Virus record (IMG/VR): IMGVR_UViG_3300010210_000001
Span: 1 to 38,650 of that record
DNA: 38,650 bases
Reading direction: 5' to 3' (one strand)
Source of the DNA: a virus
The number at the start of each line of letters is the position of its first letter. The first letter of the stretch is position 1. A program made the position numbers and the translations under genes. Positions 21,440-38,650 of the stretch are shown piece after piece. The notes below the pieces were generated by a model. It did not search any database. It was not told the DNA's origin and was given only the letters and a program-made list of their open reading frames with translations.

Positions 21440-23068
21440 TTACCATGATGTTCTTTGTTTGTCCCACCAGGTTAAAAACTGTACAATCGTATCCATTACA
21501 TCATCGTGAGCCACGTTCGGGAACTTCACAAGTTGCTTCATTGCAGTGCTCAACCAAATAGCAGCAGCTGGGAACCATAGTTCACCAGCTTCAATTCTAG
21601 GAGCCACAGCATTCAGGCGCACGGCCTTTGAGACTGAGGGCTTTTTAATTCCGATAATACCGGGCACACCTTTTTCTCTAAGAAGCTTGATCAGGGCGGG
21701 GCCGTTGGCTGCCTTCTCAATCAGGATTCCAACCGGTTTCCACTGCTTCCACAAACTCAGGACATTATCCCTGGTCTTTGTGATATCCCATTTTTTGTTT
21801 ATCACATCCAGCAAGTAAACATCCATGCCACGAACCCCGAGAACAGAGATTGCAGCATAATCCACTTTGTCTGGATTCTTGCTATCCTTGTCATCGTCAA
21901 AGGGGAGGTCGATGGAAAAATAGATGTGGAGGCCAGAGGGCAAATCCACATAACGTTTGATCCATTCACGCTTGATACGTCCACCCGCATAAGGTGCTGG
22001 GGTCTGGCCATATTGGCCCGCATACTCAAGACTTCCAAGAGTAGCTTCCAGATCACGCAGAATTTGCCGGTTCAAACGTTCAGGAAACAGCAAATCGTCA
22101 TCGTAGCGCTCTAGCAAAGCTTTCGGTGATACTCGCTCACAAGCTTCTACATCGGAAATTTCAGCAGGCAAGCAAATAAACTTCCATTTTTTATGAAAGT
22201 TCTCCAAATGCTCCTGTTTTTTTTCGATTTCCTCTGGGGTTTCCTGGGGAAGATCTTCCCCTAAAAGCCTTCCCGTTACATCAGATTCGTGCAAACGTTG
22301 CTGGATCAGTATTCTAACACCGTATTTCTGGTTATTTAAGCGAGTGCTGAGTGTTTTGGTCCAATGATCCCAGGCTAGCTTTCGCGCAGGCTCAGACTGT
22401 GATTCTTTTTGGCTCTGGAGGTCATCCCCAACAATGATATCTGCACCAAACCCTGTAGCAGATCCAGAGACAGAGGTAGAATACCGTTGCCCACCAGCTG
22501 TATTAGAAAAGTTGGTCTTCTGGCGCTGTGATCGATCCAAAACTACTGGAACTCGGTAACCACGATCAATCCCTCCAATTTCACCCCAGTTAAACTGGTA
22601 CCAGTTGGATAGAATTAGCTGTCTACAGCGTCTGGCATGATCCATAGAAAGATCATGAGAGTAGGAGCTGTTCAGAAACTTAAGGTATGGGCGCCGTGTC
22701 CATGTCCAGGCAGGAAGGCAAATAGAAACAATGAAGCTTTTCAGGCTTCGGGGTGGCACGTTGATCAGGATGTCTTGGGTTTTATTTTGGATCTGTACTG
22801 GTTTTCTGGACTTGTTTGAGTTCGTCAGCCTCATTACTGGCCAGCGCTTGACCTCTGTTTCAATTACTGAACAAATCTCTTGTATATGCCAATTGTCCTG
22901 AAACTCTGTGGTTGGTTCGAGCACTCGGAAAGCTCTCCGGACAAAGGCCTCTAAAGAATCCTCGTACAGGGAGCGCTTCTCAATGAGTCGCAGGTACTTG
23001 CGAAGCTTCTCCCGGTCGGCATCACTCTGAGCCAGGTTTAACATCTGCTGAATCTTACGACTATTCAT
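21440..23068 (-). CDS. terL: terminase large subunit
   Basis: 542 residues from the ATG at 23068 (GAGGAAG upstream), overlapping the small-subunit gene by 8 bases. It powers DNA packaging and cuts the concatemer. The ATPase domain has a Walker A-type NVPPRSLKS at 103-111 and a Walker B stretch DIIVGDDL at 210-217, followed by the coupling region LIQQRLHESDVTG. The C-terminal nuclease domain begins around 390 with IYFSIDLPFDDD and contains GILIEKAANGPALI and, near the end, VAHDDVMDTIVQF, whose acidic residues are probable metal ligands. Length is normal for the family. Confidence 0.93.
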   Translation of the reverse strand: MNSRKIQQMLNLAQSDADREKLRKYLRLIEKRSLYEDSLEAFVRRAFRVLEPTTEFQDNWHIQEICSVIETEVKRWPVMRLTNSNKSRKPVQIQNKTQDILINVPPRSLKSFIVSICLPAWTWTRRPYLKFLNSSYSHDLSMDHARRCRQLILSNWYQFNWGEIGGIDRGYRVPVVLDRSQRQKTNFSNTAGGQRYSTSVSGSATGFGADIIVGDDLQSQKESQSEPARKLAWDHWTKTLSTRLNNQKYGVRILIQQRLHESDVTGRLLGEDLPQETPEEIEKKQEHLENFHKKWKFICLPAEISDVEACERVSPKALLERYDDDLLFPERLNRQILRDLEATLGSLEYAGQYGQTPAPYAGGRIKREWIKRYVDLPSGLHIYFSIDLPFDDDKDSKNPDKVDYAAISVLGVRGMDVYLLDVINKKWDITKTRDNVLSLWKQWKPVGILIEKAANGPALIKLLREKGVPGIIGIKKPSVSKAVRLNAVAPRIEAGELWFPAAAIWLSTAMKQLVKFPNVAHDDVMDTIVQFLTWWDKQRTSW

Positions 23069-23459
23069 CGTCTTCTTCCTCATCCAGCATCTGCTCAATT
23101 GCACTCAGTTGGCTACTGAGAGGGCTCTCAAGGTCTTTCTTTTCCCGGACATTATGATCATGAGAAAGCAAAAGCGCAGAAATCTTTGAGGTGTACTCAC
23201 CTGTAAGCCCTCCCTCCTGCAGAGCTGCCTTCTGTACGTCCTTAAACAGCTCATATGCCTCAGCAAAACTTTTTGATCGCGCCTGTAAGTCTTTTAGTCG
23301 CTTGCTTGGGAATCCGTGTTTATAGCAAAAACGCTCGATAAATAAATATTTACGAGCCTCTTCGCGGTCTTCAAGTTCTGCTAAATTTCCAACCCAAGTC
23401 AGTAATTTCTCAGCAAGCTCATCCGCGTACTTCTTTGTATAGGATCTTGGTCTTGCCAC
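23061..23459 (-). CDS. terS: terminase small subunit
   Basis: 132 residues beginning at a GTG (MARPRSYT). Small terminase subunits recognise the packaging site and load the large subunit. Helical N-terminus with Lys/Arg and a likely helix-turn-helix (about 45-65, RFCYKHGFPSKRLKDLQ), a central helix pair, and a very acidic C-terminus (LDEEEDDE) likely to contact the large subunit. It overlaps the large-subunit gene. The GTG lies at the base of a nine-pair hairpin, so its start is probably controlled. No in-frame ATG is found near; an out-of-frame ATG overlaps the GTG. Confidence 0.8.
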   Translation of the reverse strand: MARPRSYTKKYADELAEKLLTWVGNLAELEDREEARKYLFIERFCYKHGFPSKRLKDLQARSKSFAEAYELFKDVQKAALQEGGLTGEYTSKISALLLSHDHNVREKKDLESPLSSQLSAIEQMLDEEEDDE

Positions 23460-23477
23460 ATCCTAAAAGTGGCAAGA
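23451..23477 (-). promoter_or_regulatory. hairpin covering the terS start codon
   Basis: Perfect nine-base inverted repeat (TCTTGCCAC / GTGGCAAGA) with a nine-base loop. In the mRNA the AGGA ribosome site is in the loop and the GTG start is the first triplet of the 3' arm. It could block terS translation, or serve as a protein-binding operator or packaging-site element. Confidence 0.7.
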
Positions 23478-23515
23478 AAGGAATATTTTCGCAGGAATAA
23501 AGATTTTTAACGCTC

Positions 23516-23545
23516 ATTATACGAAAATTATTAGAATTTAAGCAA
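23516..23545 (-). promoter_or_regulatory. late operon promoter
   Basis: On the minus strand, TTGCTT (23545-23540) and a perfect TATAAT (23521-23516) are spaced by 18 bases, about 55 bases upstream of the terS start. Transcription would begin near 23509 and include the terS hairpin in the leader. No other good promoter is seen ahead of the late genes. Confidence 0.65.
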
Positions 23546-23565
23546 TTCAACCAGAGAGGCTCTAT

Positions 23566-24633
23566 ATGGATTTTTCAGATAAAATATATGAAATTGCAAA
23601 AAGATTACCTTCAACCCTGGAACACATCCAGACAGAAGAAGCAACAAAAAACGCCTTAATCATGCCCTTTATTTCGGCCCTTGGTTATGATGTTTTTAAC
23701 CCAACTGAGGTAGTTCCTGAATTCACAGCAGACATTCCCGAACTTAAGAAAGGTGAAAAAGTTGACTACGCGCTAAAAAAGAATAATCAGATTATAATTC
23801 TTATCGAATGTAAACCTCATAATGCAATACTTTCAGAAGGTTACACTGCACAGCTGTATCGCTATTTTAGTGTTGTTGAAGCGCGTTTTGCAATTCTAAC
23901 AAACGGTATTGAATATCATTTCTTCAGCGATATAAAAACACCGAACGTAATGGATAAAAATCCCTTTTTCACATTCGACATACGCGCAATTTCTGACCAG
24001 AAGATCGACGAATTGAAAAAATTTACTAAAGCTTCATTTGATCTAGATGAAATTATTGATGTTGCTTCAGATCTAAAGTATTCAAAGGACATCAAAGAAC
24101 TTTTCCTGAAAGAAGTAAGCGCACCAAGCGATGCTTTTACAAGACACTTTGCCAGTAGCGTCTATGATGGTCGCCTCACAGCAAGCAATCTTGAAAAGTT
24201 TAAACTTATCGTGAAAAAGACCCTTAATCAGGTCATAACCGATAAAATATCTGAACGCTTAAATGCAGCTCTACAGGAGCAACAAGAAGAGCAAAATCAA
24301 ATCGACGAGCAAACAGAGCCAGAAGAATTGCCGGAGAACGGTATAATCACAACCCAAGACGAAATTGATGGATTCAACATCATAAAATCTATATGCAGAA
24401 AGTGGGTTTCTGCCGAGCGAATTTTCATGAGAGACACTAAATCTTATTGTGGCGTATTACTTGATGACAACAATAGAAAGCCAATCGCGCGCATGCACTT
24501 CAATACTGATAAAAAACAAGTTGAGCTGTTCAATCAGAATAAAGAAGGTGAAAAAATACCCATAAGCTCATTGGATGAAATTTTTGATTTCGAAGAAAAA
24601 TTTAAGTCTTTGATTGAATTCTACGAATCTTAA
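23566..24633 (+). CDS. HsdR_N-like PD-(D/E)XK nuclease domain protein (COG4748-type)
   Basis: 355 residues. The N-terminus matches the nuclease part of type I restriction R subunits without the motor: EEATKNALIMPFISALGYD at about 24-42, then Asp67 in KVDYALK and Glu81-x-Lys83 in LIECKPHN, the PD-(D/E)XK active site, then YTAQLYRYFSV and the ILTNG turn. A Gln/Glu-rich linker (about 243-275) leads to a C-terminal domain with SICRKWVSAERIFMRD that recurs in this group. Such stand-alone proteins are common in prophages. The gene is divergent from the late operon and its stop overlaps the convergent outer-membrane gene by 4 bases. Likely cargo expressed in the lysogen; role in defence or exclusion is inferred. 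Confidence 0.75.
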   Translation: MDFSDKIYEIAKRLPSTLEHIQTEEATKNALIMPFISALGYDVFNPTEVVPEFTADIPELKKGEKVDYALKKNNQIIILIECKPHNAILSEGYTAQLYRYFSVVEARFAILTNGIEYHFFSDIKTPNVMDKNPFFTFDIRAISDQKIDELKKFTKASFDLDEIIDVASDLKYSKDIKELFLKEVSAPSDAFTRHFASSVYDGRLTASNLEKFKLIVKKTLNQVITDKISERLNAALQEQQEEQNQIDEQTEPEELPENGIITTQDEIDGFNIIKSICRKWVSAERIFMRDTKSYCGVLLDDNNRKPIARMHFNTDKKQVELFNQNKEGEKIPISSLDEIFDFEEKFKSLIEFYES

Positions 24634-25346
24634 AATTTCCACACTTGAACACTCATAAGCCACTGAAAATAATGCTCTCCAAACATCGCTTGGGCTCCTA
24701 TTCTCCAGTATGATAGGTAAAAGCCGAAGCGGTGGGGTGAGAATGTTGTGGCTTGTGGTGGGCCTGTGATTTGTAAAACATTATTGCCATCAATAAACAA
24801 AATCGAATCACTATGAGAAGCCATATCTGCATAATAATTACAATCATAAGTGGTTAACATAGGATTCCCATTTTCATCACAATAGTTTTGAGTAACAAGT
24901 TGCTTCGCACTCTTTGAATCATTAAATCCAAAATCAGAAAAAGCGTAGGCATACTCAGCACCTAAACTTAAATCAGCTGGACCCAGTTCAATTTTCACAC
25001 CAGCCCCGATCTGAGGCTGATGATGCCAAAAAACTGTATTTTCAGGTAAATTCGTCTCCACTTTTGAAGGTTTAGACCAGTAGGCAAAACTATATCCCAG
25101 TCGAGCGTATACCGGATAGTCCTCATTATCCCAAGAAAGAAAAAATGCTGGAGAGTATACCGCGTAGTCTTCCCACTTCCAAATATTTTTAGTAATAGAA
25201 ACACCTTCTTCATTCTCTATGATTACAGATCCGTCATAAACATACTGCCACGAAGTACTAATCCCAGATCCAACCTCAACACCAAAATTATTCTGGCTAA
25301 AAACCAACTGGGAAAGTAAACTGATTATTAAAAATAATTTTCTCAT
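24630..25346 (-). CDS. outer-membrane beta-barrel protein, lysogenic cargo
   Basis: 238 residues with a clear signal peptide (MRKLFLIISLLSQLVFS, cleavage around 18) and alternating hydrophobic/aromatic strands (PVYARLGYSFAYW, LSLGAEYAYAF, RFGFYLSYWRIGAQ). The last residue is Phe after SVQVWK, a typical barrel assembly signal. It therefore goes to the host outer membrane, implying a diderm host. Good GAGAGGA ribosome site. It lies apart from the phage operons and overlaps the convergent nuclease gene, so it is a likely moron that changes the cell surface, for instance to hide or replace a phage receptor. The two Cys at about 161 and 175 could pair. No named family. Confidence 0.7.
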   Translation of the reverse strand: MRKLFLIISLLSQLVFSQNNFGVEVGSGISTSWQYVYDGSVIIENEEGVSITKNIWKWEDYAVYSPAFFLSWDNEDYPVYARLGYSFAYWSKPSKVETNLPENTVFWHHQPQIGAGVKIELGPADLSLGAEYAYAFSDFGFNDSKSAKQLVTQNYCDENGNPMLTTYDCNYYADMASHSDSILFIDGNNVLQITGPPQATTFSPHRFGFYLSYWRIGAQAMFGEHYFQWLMSVQVWKF

Positions 25347-25791
25347 ACATCATCCTCTCATCTTCCAACAATCTCAAATCTAATATACGAAGGACAAAAC
25401 AACAAGTTTTTATCAATAAATCACCATCTCGACGTTATGATTATTTCTCTAGGAATTTTAGACATTACTAAATAACTAAAGTTACCATTTCATATCCTAT
25501 ATTCTTACGCGATCGGGGGTGCGCAAAAATAAAAGATTTAAAAGAGTAATGTTGGTAAGAATGGTAATATTCCCTCTAATTTCAGCGCTAAAGTCAATTT
25601 ACTCTATAAAAATCGGTAATAATTTGGTTAGAAAAATCGTTAATATTACCGATATCGGTTAGATATGAGATTGATAAAGATTTTTAAAAACTTATTAGAG
25701 GGTAAAAGTCTGCTTTTGATCAAAAAAAGTAAATCTCTTTAAAACAAAAACAACGTAGCGGGATGGGGTAACGGGTAACTAATTTGATGCT
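25347..25791. promoter_or_regulatory. AT-rich intergenic region with GGTAA repeats and palindromes
   Basis: 445 bases without a convincing gene. It lies between the 3' end of a regulator gene and the 5' end of the outer-membrane gene. It holds ATCGGTAATA (25612-25621) and its exact inverse TATTACCGAT (25644-25653), a 12-base perfect palindrome ACCGATATCGGT (25648-25659), GGTAAG and GGTAAT at 25554 and 25563, and adjacent GGGTAAC copies at 25766 and 25773. Possible uses are operators for the outer-membrane gene, a replication or partition site, or a non-coding RNA. Confidence 0.5.
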
Positions 25792-26109
25792 TTAAAATTG
25801 CTTTTTAGATATGATCTGAAATTCTGACGAAAAAAGGCGTAGTTCCTCCAGCTCACTTTCAAGATCAGTACAGCGTTTTGTCAAATAGCTCACCGTAGAT
25901 GAAAAATCAGGGGTGCGGATGCCAGTTAAAAGCCAGTGTATGTCACCGTGTGAACAAAAAGCTATTAAACCTCGTAGATCTATACCCTGACGATTTGATT
26001 CCCAATTCGAATATCTGCGATTTGTACAACCCAACAACTCTGCAGCCTGTTGCTGAGTATATCCCCTCTCATCCCGCCAATGCCGCAGACGAGATGCTAT
26101 TTCCAGCAT
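25792..26109 (-). CDS. Cro/CI-type HTH regulator (paralogue 1)
   Basis: 105 residues. Helix-turn-helix of the XRE family at about 8-45: RLRHWRDERGYTQQQAAELLG, then CTNRRYSNWESNRQ. The HWLLTGIRTP stretch is the usual end of a CI-like N-terminal domain. The C-terminus (about 71-90) has STVSYLTKRCTDLESELEEL, a short coiled coil nearly the same as in the regulator at 26422-26805. There is no LexA-like self-cleaving domain. The ATG follows directly the stop of the upstream small gene (TAAATG), so the two are coupled. Probably a lysogeny-control protein. Confidence 0.8.
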   Translation of the reverse strand: MLEIASRLRHWRDERGYTQQQAAELLGCTNRRYSNWESNRQGIDLRGLIAFCSHGDIHWLLTGIRTPDFSSTVSYLTKRCTDLESELEELRLFSSEFQIISKKQF

Positions 26110-26343
26110 TTAACGACGGCGATCTATTAAATCAAGATATATAGCGTACAAGTTTGATGTAGTTTGGGAATTATAGTCTTCCCCAGTAAATATTTCGTGT
26201 AAATCTATTCTCATCTCTGCTGCCTCCAACAACACACGAAGCATGGAAGGCGTTAAGTCCGGAAGTATCCGGCCAGATGGCACCTCTACCCCACACTCGA
26301 TTAGTTCTCTCTTTAAACGATTGTCAACTTTTTCAGGCGTCAT
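26110..26343 (-). CDS. small hypothetical protein in the lysogeny region
   Basis: 77 residues with an AAGGAG ribosome site. Helical throughout, Leu/Glu/Arg-rich, with segments RLKRELIECGVEV and SMLRVLLEAAEMRIDLHEIF. It lies between the two regulators and its stop touches the start codon of the downstream regulator, so it is made together with it. No family recognised; a partner of the regulator or an antirepressor-like protein is conceivable from context only. Confidence 0.6.
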   Translation of the reverse strand: MTPEKVDNRLKRELIECGVEVPSGRILPDLTPSMLRVLLEAAEMRIDLHEIFTGEDYNSQTTSNLYAIYLDLIDRRR

Positions 26344-26421
26344 AGCTACTCCTTTTTTTAATTGAGCCTATAACTAAAACGCCTAAACTGATAAATATGT
26401 TACAAAAATCTTTAAAAAAAA

Positions 26422-26805
26422 TCACCCAGCTGCAGAATTGCCAGATATCGCTTCATATTTTGCTCGGCACTCTGCTAAATCTGATTCTAATTTCATACAC
26501 CTATTCGTCAAATATGTTACCGTATCTGACAACCAGGAATCCGGCTTTGGTTGTTCCACTTCAATTACTGGCTCTGCTGTTCCATCCCGAAGCATTGGGC
26601 CATGGCCACTTACAAGCCAGTTCAAATCAACACCCTTTTCATATAGCTTTTGCATACTATACGAATTAAAATTAGGCTTACCTCTTTCCCATAATTGATA
26701 ACCCCGCAAACCAACCCCAAGATACGAAGCAAAGTCTACTTGCTTTATCTCAAAGTGTCGCCGGACAGTCGCAAGTCTTTTTCCCACTTCAAGAAAATTT
26801 TGCAT
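26422..26805 (-). CDS. CI-type repressor-like HTH regulator (paralogue 2)
   Basis: 127 residues. XRE-type helix-turn-helix at about 7-45 (RLATVRRHFEIKQVDFASYLG ... LRGYQLWERGK) and GVDLNWLVSGHGPML, which closes phage CI N-terminal domains. After a Pro-rich linker comes DTVTYLTNRCMKLESDLAEC, shared with the regulator at 25792. No peptidase domain, so RecA-driven self-cleavage is not expected. It is transcribed away from the early operon across a shared operator region, the classic repressor position, and is the best candidate for the main repressor. Confidence 0.8.
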   Translation of the reverse strand: MQNFLEVGKRLATVRRHFEIKQVDFASYLGVGLRGYQLWERGKPNFNSYSMQKLYEKGVDLNWLVSGHGPMLRDGTAEPVIEVEQPKPDSWLSDTVTYLTNRCMKLESDLAECRAKYEAISGNSAAG

Positions 26806-37442: not shown

Positions 37443-38474
37443 TTACCTAAGCAAACAAATAGCTTTTTCCAAATCACCTGGCAACAAATGCCCATAAGTA
37501 TCCAGCGTAATATTGATATTTGCATGCCCCATCAGTAATTGCACACTTTTTACATTCGCGCCATTTCGGATCAGGTTTGACGCAAAACTATGCCGAAAAC
37601 GGTGCAAGGTGACTGGTCCAGGAACTTGAAACTCTTCTCCAGCAAGAATTCTCTTTAGTAGTTTCAACCTCCCAAACGCAGTTTTTGGTTGTACGTTCAC
37701 TACCATGCCAGTCCGCTCAGATTGAGGGAATTTTGCAAGCTCTGCTAAAATCACAGAATGGATGGGGATAACTCTTGCTTTATTTCCTTTCCCATTTCTC
37801 ACAGTTAATTGATTGTTATCAAGGCTTATATCACCCCATTCCAAATCCATCGCTTCCTGCGAGCGCAATCCCGCATAAGCCATCAATGCCCAGAAAAGCC
37901 TATCACCAGTACTTGGCGCCTTAGTCAAAATTCTAGCGATCTCCTCCAAAGTCCAAAAAGGCCGTTCACGTTGCTGTATTTTAGGCACCTTAAAGGAAGC
38001 CACCGGGTTTGGCACAACACCCATATCGTTAAAGAAGGCTTTCGCCAGACGGAGGACTTCCTTAATCGTTTTGGGTGCCAACACTAGTAATTCAGAGTAC
38101 CAATTTTGTAAATCATCTTTTGTGATGTCTTCTAAGACCATGTCTTTTGGAACCATATCAAAGCATCGACGAATCCTTGAATCATAAGCAATACCGCTTT
38201 TCTGGGAAGATTTAGACACCAGATCAACGGATCTCTTGCGGTACTTTTCAATTTCCTCACCAAAATACCGTTTTTTGCCGGAAAGTCTTTTCTGAAGCTC
38301 TGGACTATACTTCACAGCATTCATTTGCTGCATCCACATATCAGCTTCTTTTTTTAGTTTAGTTCCAAGAGATTTCTCGGAGACCCGCTTTCCATTGTGG
38401 TACTCACGGCCATACCAAATTCCACGGCGTTTAGAGATTGAAAAGGTGATTTTTTGGTTGAAAACAAGTTCCAT
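37443..38474 (-). CDS. int: tyrosine integrase
   Basis: 343 residues with all catalytic parts of the tyrosine recombinase family: Arg204 in YAGLRSQEA, Lys229/232 in the GKGNKAR hairpin, His291-x-x-Arg294 in LHRFRHSFASN, His317 in LLMGHANI and the nucleophile Tyr327 in LDTYGHL. The N-terminal ~65 residues look like an arm-binding domain, and the core-binding helices occupy about 70-165. It catalyses insertion and excision of the prophage. A strong GAGGGAG ribosome site precedes the ATG. It is read inward from the right edge and the accessory block follows. Confidence 0.92.
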   Translation of the reverse strand: MELVFNQKITFSISKRRGIWYGREYHNGKRVSEKSLGTKLKKEADMWMQQMNAVKYSPELQKRLSGKKRYFGEEIEKYRKRSVDLVSKSSQKSGIAYDSRIRRCFDMVPKDMVLEDITKDDLQNWYSELLVLAPKTIKEVLRLAKAFFNDMGVVPNPVASFKVPKIQQRERPFWTLEEIARILTKAPSTGDRLFWALMAYAGLRSQEAMDLEWGDISLDNNQLTVRNGKGNKARVIPIHSVILAELAKFPQSERTGMVVNVQPKTAFGRLKLLKRILAGEEFQVPGPVTLHRFRHSFASNLIRNGANVKSVQLLMGHANINITLDTYGHLLPGDLEKAICLLR

Positions 38475-38477
38475 ATT

Positions 38478-38498
38478 GCTCCCTCTATTTCCCCTCTA
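38478..38498 (+). repeat. possible integrase arm-type site, right copy
   Basis: GCTCCCTCTATTTCCCCTCTA, 17 of 21 matches to 58-78 in the same orientation. It covers the ribosome site of the integrase gene, so integrase binding here could also limit its own synthesis. Low complexity limits the confidence. Confidence 0.25.
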
Positions 38499-38504
38499 AA
38501 CTAA

Positions 38505-38513
38505 AATATAACA
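38505..38513 (-). promoter_or_regulatory. probable integrase promoter (extended -10)
   Basis: On the minus strand TGTTATATT reads as an extended -10 element (TGn plus TATATT), about 30 bases upstream of the integrase ATG. The -35 region (CCCCAAAACCCC side) is poor, as is usual for extended -10 promoters. Confidence 0.45.
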
Positions 38514-38604
38514 GTAATAACGGGGGTTTTGGGGTTGTCTTTATAATTCTTTATGTACCTTTAAAATTACTTTTTTAAGCTCTAAAAAACCATGAATATC
38601 TACG

Positions 38605-38611
38605 ATTAAGC
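38605..38611. other. possible attachment core GATTAAG (right copy)
   Basis: The same seven bases open the window at 1-7, where they are the anticodon-loop part of the tRNA-Lys-like fragment. Seven bases is a usual crossover length for tyrosine integrases, and this copy lies 130 bases from the integrase start. A seven-base match can be chance, and no tRNA sequence continues after it. Confidence 0.3.
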
Positions 38612-38618
38612 AATAAAA

Positions 38619-38647
38619 AAGGCGTTTCTCTCACGAAAAACGCCTTT
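38619..38647 (-). terminator. intrinsic terminator at the right edge
   Basis: Ten-pair stem AAAGGCGTTT / AAACGCCTTT with a nine-base loop. On the minus strand it is followed by a run of T, so it stops leftward transcription entering from the right; on the plus strand the T-run is short. It shields the integrase gene from outside read-through. Confidence 0.75.
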
Positions 38648-38650
38648 AGT

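Follow-up and report, generated by a model that had tools for sequence, protein, structure and literature searches.

A nine-pair inverted repeat over the start codon of a phage small terminase gene: a possible brake on translation

What does a perfect inverted repeat do when it takes in the start codon of a phage small terminase gene? The repeat lies in a phage record, the whole of which (38,650 bases) is called the window here. The window gives matches to integrase, terminase, portal, head and tape-measure proteins, and the phage is temperate. Its small terminase gene, terS (23061-23459, minus strand; PHROG 3064, E 3.3e-8), encodes 132 amino acids from a GTG start and precedes the large terminase gene terL (21440-23068, minus strand; PHROG 38, E 4.4e-91), the ATG of which, at 23068, overlaps the 3' end of terS. 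As terS is the first minus-strand gene past a 106-nt intergenic stretch, its translation cannot depend on being coupled to that of an immediately preceding gene. Divergent from terS, a gene at 23566-24633 encodes an HsdR_N-type endonuclease-like protein (PHROG 4225, endonuclease). No tRNA genes were found in the window.

The original prediction placed a nine-pair hairpin at 23451-23477, with AGGA in its loop and the terS GTG in its 3' arm, and the minus-strand sequence bears this out. The inverted repeat is exact (9/9 pairs around a 9-nt loop). Its 5' arm, TCTTGCCAC (23469-23477), is non-coding leader; the loop, TTTTAGGAT (23460-23468), contains AGGA and, in frame, the stop codon TAG (23465-23463); the 3' arm, GTGGCAAGA (23451-23459), has the GTG as its first three bases and continues through codons 2-3. 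This TAG precedes the GTG by 6 nt, which makes the GTG the first possible common start of terS. The hairpin is a real and well described sequence feature. AGGA ends 1 nt before the GTG, and terS is among the 17 of 44 window genes without an SD-like 4-mer at 4-12 nt, which the other 27 possess. These 44 starts are our pick of likely genes from a mechanical ORF list and a few are probably wrong; terL, for example, was placed at GTG 23104 in the SD counts and in the start-region energy and opening-cost comparisons below, where ATG 23068 is likelier. An intrinsic terminator was rejected, as a T run is absent after either arm and 23200-23700 holds no terminator-like site. A known RNA family was also discarded, the four Rfam matches over 23000-24000 all being far below their gathering scores.

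Such a repeat might simply have fallen on the start codon unselected, with any physical effect tolerated, and we regard chance of this kind as a serious if somewhat doubtful explanation. Viewed as a mere inverted repeat, the hairpin is no more than chance would provide: the window has five centres with arms of at least 9 and loops of 3-30, against one to nine in 30 first-order Markov sequences, and so shows no excess. Judged per start, the stem over the terS start codon is beyond chance. When the 106-nt leader was shuffled with the coding part kept, only 2 of 20,000 sequences gave a stem of at least nine pairs over the start (P = 1e-4), which argues against coincidence. Among 735 other phage ORF starts (176 other loci; longest-ORF starts, and uncertain as such) one has nine pairs and four have eight. 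Multiplied by 44, the two per-start rates of 1e-4 and 1/735 give 0.004 to 0.06 expected cases per 44 starts; the value of about 0.06 is favourable to chance, many windows presumably having been read. The 27-base pattern, with up to three mismatches, occurs once in the window where 0.02 are expected, a test that is circular since the pattern was derived from the site itself.

The predicted RNA at the terS start is a stable stem that takes in the start codon. The region from -30 to +20 has a minimum free energy (MFE) of -14.9 kcal/mol, the lowest among the 44 window starts, and is more stable than shuffled leaders (z -3.1, P 0.006). The z-score depends on the length folded, being -4.0 for 46 nt, -2.2 for 71 nt and -1.3 for 97 nt. 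In other loci, 25 of 708 start regions (again uncertain longest-ORF starts) fold as stably, with energies uncorrected for GC content. Whatever the leader length tried (18 to 106 nt), the probability that the GTG is unpaired is 0.001-0.002 and the cost of opening the start is 14-16 kcal/mol. With 50-nt flanks this cost is 14.8, second of the 44 after a highest value of 16.1, and the probability of an unpaired start codon (0.002) is the lowest among the ten highest-cost starts listed. Being the most extreme of 44 in local stability and the least accessible of those ten counts against chance placement.

These results suggest a possible translational brake. An mRNA with 18 nt or more ahead of the GTG would fold its leader into the nine-pair hairpin, which would bury the terS start codon and leave a short AGGA in the loop. 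Initiation at terS would then be slow, and because of this little small terminase would be made unless the stem were opened or bypassed. That the hairpin, if transcribed, lowers or gates terS translation is our tentative reading, held at a little less than even confidence; with much the same reserve, poor initiation may be taken as the most straightforward physical effect to expect when both arms are transcribed. The sequence, its predicted stability and the low predicted accessibility of the start codon support this reading. We infer that transcripts include the leader, that they adopt the stem inside the cell and that the phage gains from low or gated terS expression. Among the points against the brake, such a stem is absent at 20 distant terS starts, a promoter is unsupported, the z-score is only -1.3 at 97 nt, 25 of the 708 start regions elsewhere are as stable, and one of the 44 starts costs more to open. 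A brake at terS is plausible but unproven.

The original prediction derived the leader from a TATAAT promoter. The hexamer is indeed present (23521-23516, minus strand), but no accompanying -35 element passes the scan and the hexamer is altered to CATTAA in a close relative described below. The scan detected no sigma-70-like -10/-35 pair in 23200-23700, phage-specific promoters being outside its scope. A promoter for the terS leader is, on the sequence, poorly supported. Transcripts might also come from further away: since the HTH repressor-like genes at 25792-26805 lie on the same strand as terS (leftward), read-through from them could reach it. Between these genes and a leftward gene at 24630-25346 lies an inverted repeat, ATCGGTAAT / ATTACCGAT (25612-25653), with similar half-sites nearby, which may be an operator. 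The motif AAAATCTTTA occurs at 23498, 25675 (minus) and 26405 (plus), in or near non-coding stretches; its three copies may belong to a promoter or an operator, or may reflect AT-rich chance.

The brake depends on leader length, as a transcription start within 15 nt of the GTG would lose the stem. The predicted stem disappears once the leader is no longer than 15 nt, and at 6 to 15 nt the loop bases TAGGAT (23465-23460) pair instead with ATCCTA in terS codons 5-7 (23440-23445, minus strand). The message could be near-leaderless, beginning no more than about 15 nt ahead of the GTG, with the 5' arm serving as promoter DNA rather than RNA and the dyad as promoter or operator sequence. The close spacing of AGGA and GTG, too short for a normal ribosome site, would suit such a message, as would the lack of conservation of the proposed upstream promoter in the relative. 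However, the scan found no -10/-35-like pair close to the gene either, and the loop is still predicted to pair with codons 5-7 when the 5' arm is missing; we consider this arrangement highly improbable. The same complementarity could in principle form a pseudoknot or alternative stem. Its shuffle P of 0.047 is a hint only, and the tight 5-nt linker would have to span the nine-pair stem; a pseudoknot between the SD loop and codons 5-7 is not claimed.

TerS and TerL served as queries for protein and alignment searches against viral_contigs, genome_contigs and phages. These gave a single close relative, IMGVR_UViG_3300010215_000017, with collinear aligned blocks and 93% identity over 29,877 aligned bases; the next TerL has 38% identity (tblastn). 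The relative is identical over 23296-23506 (211 nt), a span that takes in the hairpin together with terS codons 1-54, and past codon 54 it differs in 17 codons, 15 of them silently. Conservation of the hairpin was considered as evidence of selection and dropped once the identical runs of the pair had been listed. The 211-nt run is only the 14th longest (the longest is 560), so identity over the hairpin is uninformative about selection, and mosaic exchange explains it equally well. Identical runs of at least 200 nt are common (16 among the 25 longest listed for the pair), a point in favour of chance. Chance is also favoured by the distant phages, where 20 terS starts, some from near-identical phages, have no start-overlapping stem of more than five pairs. 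An end of the contig lies near the integrase gene in both the window and the relative (37443-38650 and 1-1391), and the relative has a further end at window position 1391; an integrated prophage or a break in the assembly may be the reason.

The dyad could alternatively act as DNA, bound, perhaps together with a second dyad upstream, by TerS (as a pac site or operator) or by another regulator. We judge this unlikely, though worth keeping in view because SPP1 shows that pac may extend across the promoter, the ribosome site and the opening codons of terS, and because gp1 reportedly represses its own synthesis (so the title of a 1997 paper by Chai et al.). The original prediction had suggested delayed packaging, autoregulation by small terminase or a packaging site; SPP1 offers a precedent for the last two, but these regulatory proposals are not supported by the present sequence. 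The second dyad, ATTTTCGTA (23528-23520) and TGCGAAAAT (23493-23485) around a 26-nt loop (23485-23528, minus strand), shares the single 106-nt intergenic stretch with the hairpin, an arrangement that would suit a bound site. Its upstream half, ATTTTCG(T/C)A in the two phages, pairs with TGCGAAAAT; the one G-U pair of the window phage is C-G in the relative, where the repeat is a perfect 9-base one and several loop bases differ. As 12 columns of the 106-nt leader differ between the two phages, the G-U to C-G change is within chance. A binding site is also compatible with the single copy of the hairpin element in the window and in the searched pieces of the relative, but the 9-base half-site has no further occurrence in either phage, and the only other virus in viral_contigs with the exact dyad, besides the relative, has it inside an unrelated gene. 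A host or phage operator reused elsewhere was rejected on this distribution.

The TerS protein itself gives points for and against a DNA site. Its profile matches PDB chains 3hef and 4dyc (Gene 1 protein / terminase small subunit; E about 1e-4), which we take to be from Shigella phage Sf6, and short helices at residues 32-61 of the structure model are a possible HTH. Against this, the model is poor (pLDDT 63.8) and a fold search with it gave no match at E 0.001. Its identity as a small terminase is supported by the PHROG 3064 match, the position before terL, the profile match and an alignment with distant phage TerS proteins (18-31% identity, the close relative excepted); the match to PF16677 is weak (E 0.00095, below the family cutoff), and an NCBIfam search gave no match. 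The contig ends are uninformative on packaging type.

The precedent for a DNA site comes from SPP1/SF6 phages (PMC6316719, PMC4737164). The SPP1 pac covers late promoters, the ribosome site and the part of gene 1 for the DNA-binding domain (PMC6316719), and has boxA, boxB and boxC direct repeats around the cleavage site (PMC4737164). The likeness lies in an element placed over the beginning of terS, with its opening codons, and in a suspected HTH-type TerS; the difference is that the SPP1 boxes are direct repeats, whereas the present element is an inverted repeat, with no convincing or clearly repeated box of that kind. The region 23250-23600 holds three weak two-copy direct-repeat families (21 nt at 71%, 15 nt at 80% and 8 nt exact), none of them convincing as SPP1-type pac boxes. 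Short two-copy families often arise by chance, and the AACGCTC core of the 21-nt family is not kept in the leader of the relative.

Both roles could be combined in one element, the 27 bp being bound by TerS as DNA and, once transcribed, locking the start codon, with a pseudoknot between the SD loop and codons 5-7. Late-made small terminase would in this way shut off its own translation and mark the start of packaging. In a simpler version, the lock would serve lysogeny: no TerS would be made from transcripts that read through from the leftward repressor-like genes. We think this combined scheme, simpler version included, very unlikely.

Returning to the brake, if real it would be a simple way to keep a packaging protein low until late, and a direct handle on how the phage sets its small-terminase level. 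The phage concerned has one close relative only in the collections searched; the hairpin is seen there only in these two phages and may be a coincidence. A search of the literature by title or abstract found no start-codon hairpin at terS, and an earlier report in print is possible. As it stands, the hairpin is a modest, testable lead and no surprise.

A start hairpin of this sort is not new in kind. For autocontrol by TerS, the operator hairpin of T4 gene 43, placed about 40 bases upstream of the start (PMC3014915), is a possible model, in that a DNA-acting protein represses its own synthesis through an RNA hairpin. That hairpin lies upstream of the start, whereas the terS hairpin covers it, and RNA binding by TerS is putative. 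Start-region hairpins of T4 gene e and I-TevI, described in the same paper, are a precedent for start locks in phage; in T4 the stem is eliminated by a late promoter within the 5' part, and both RNA structure and effect were tested (PMC3014915). The terS stem differs in having no promoter detected inside it by the sigma-70-like scan and in being known from sequence alone. It resembles the T4 cases in the predicted stem over a translation start and in belonging to a phage gene expected to act late. Since read-through from the repressor-like genes could reach terS, a regulated lock like that of T4 gene e is possible there.
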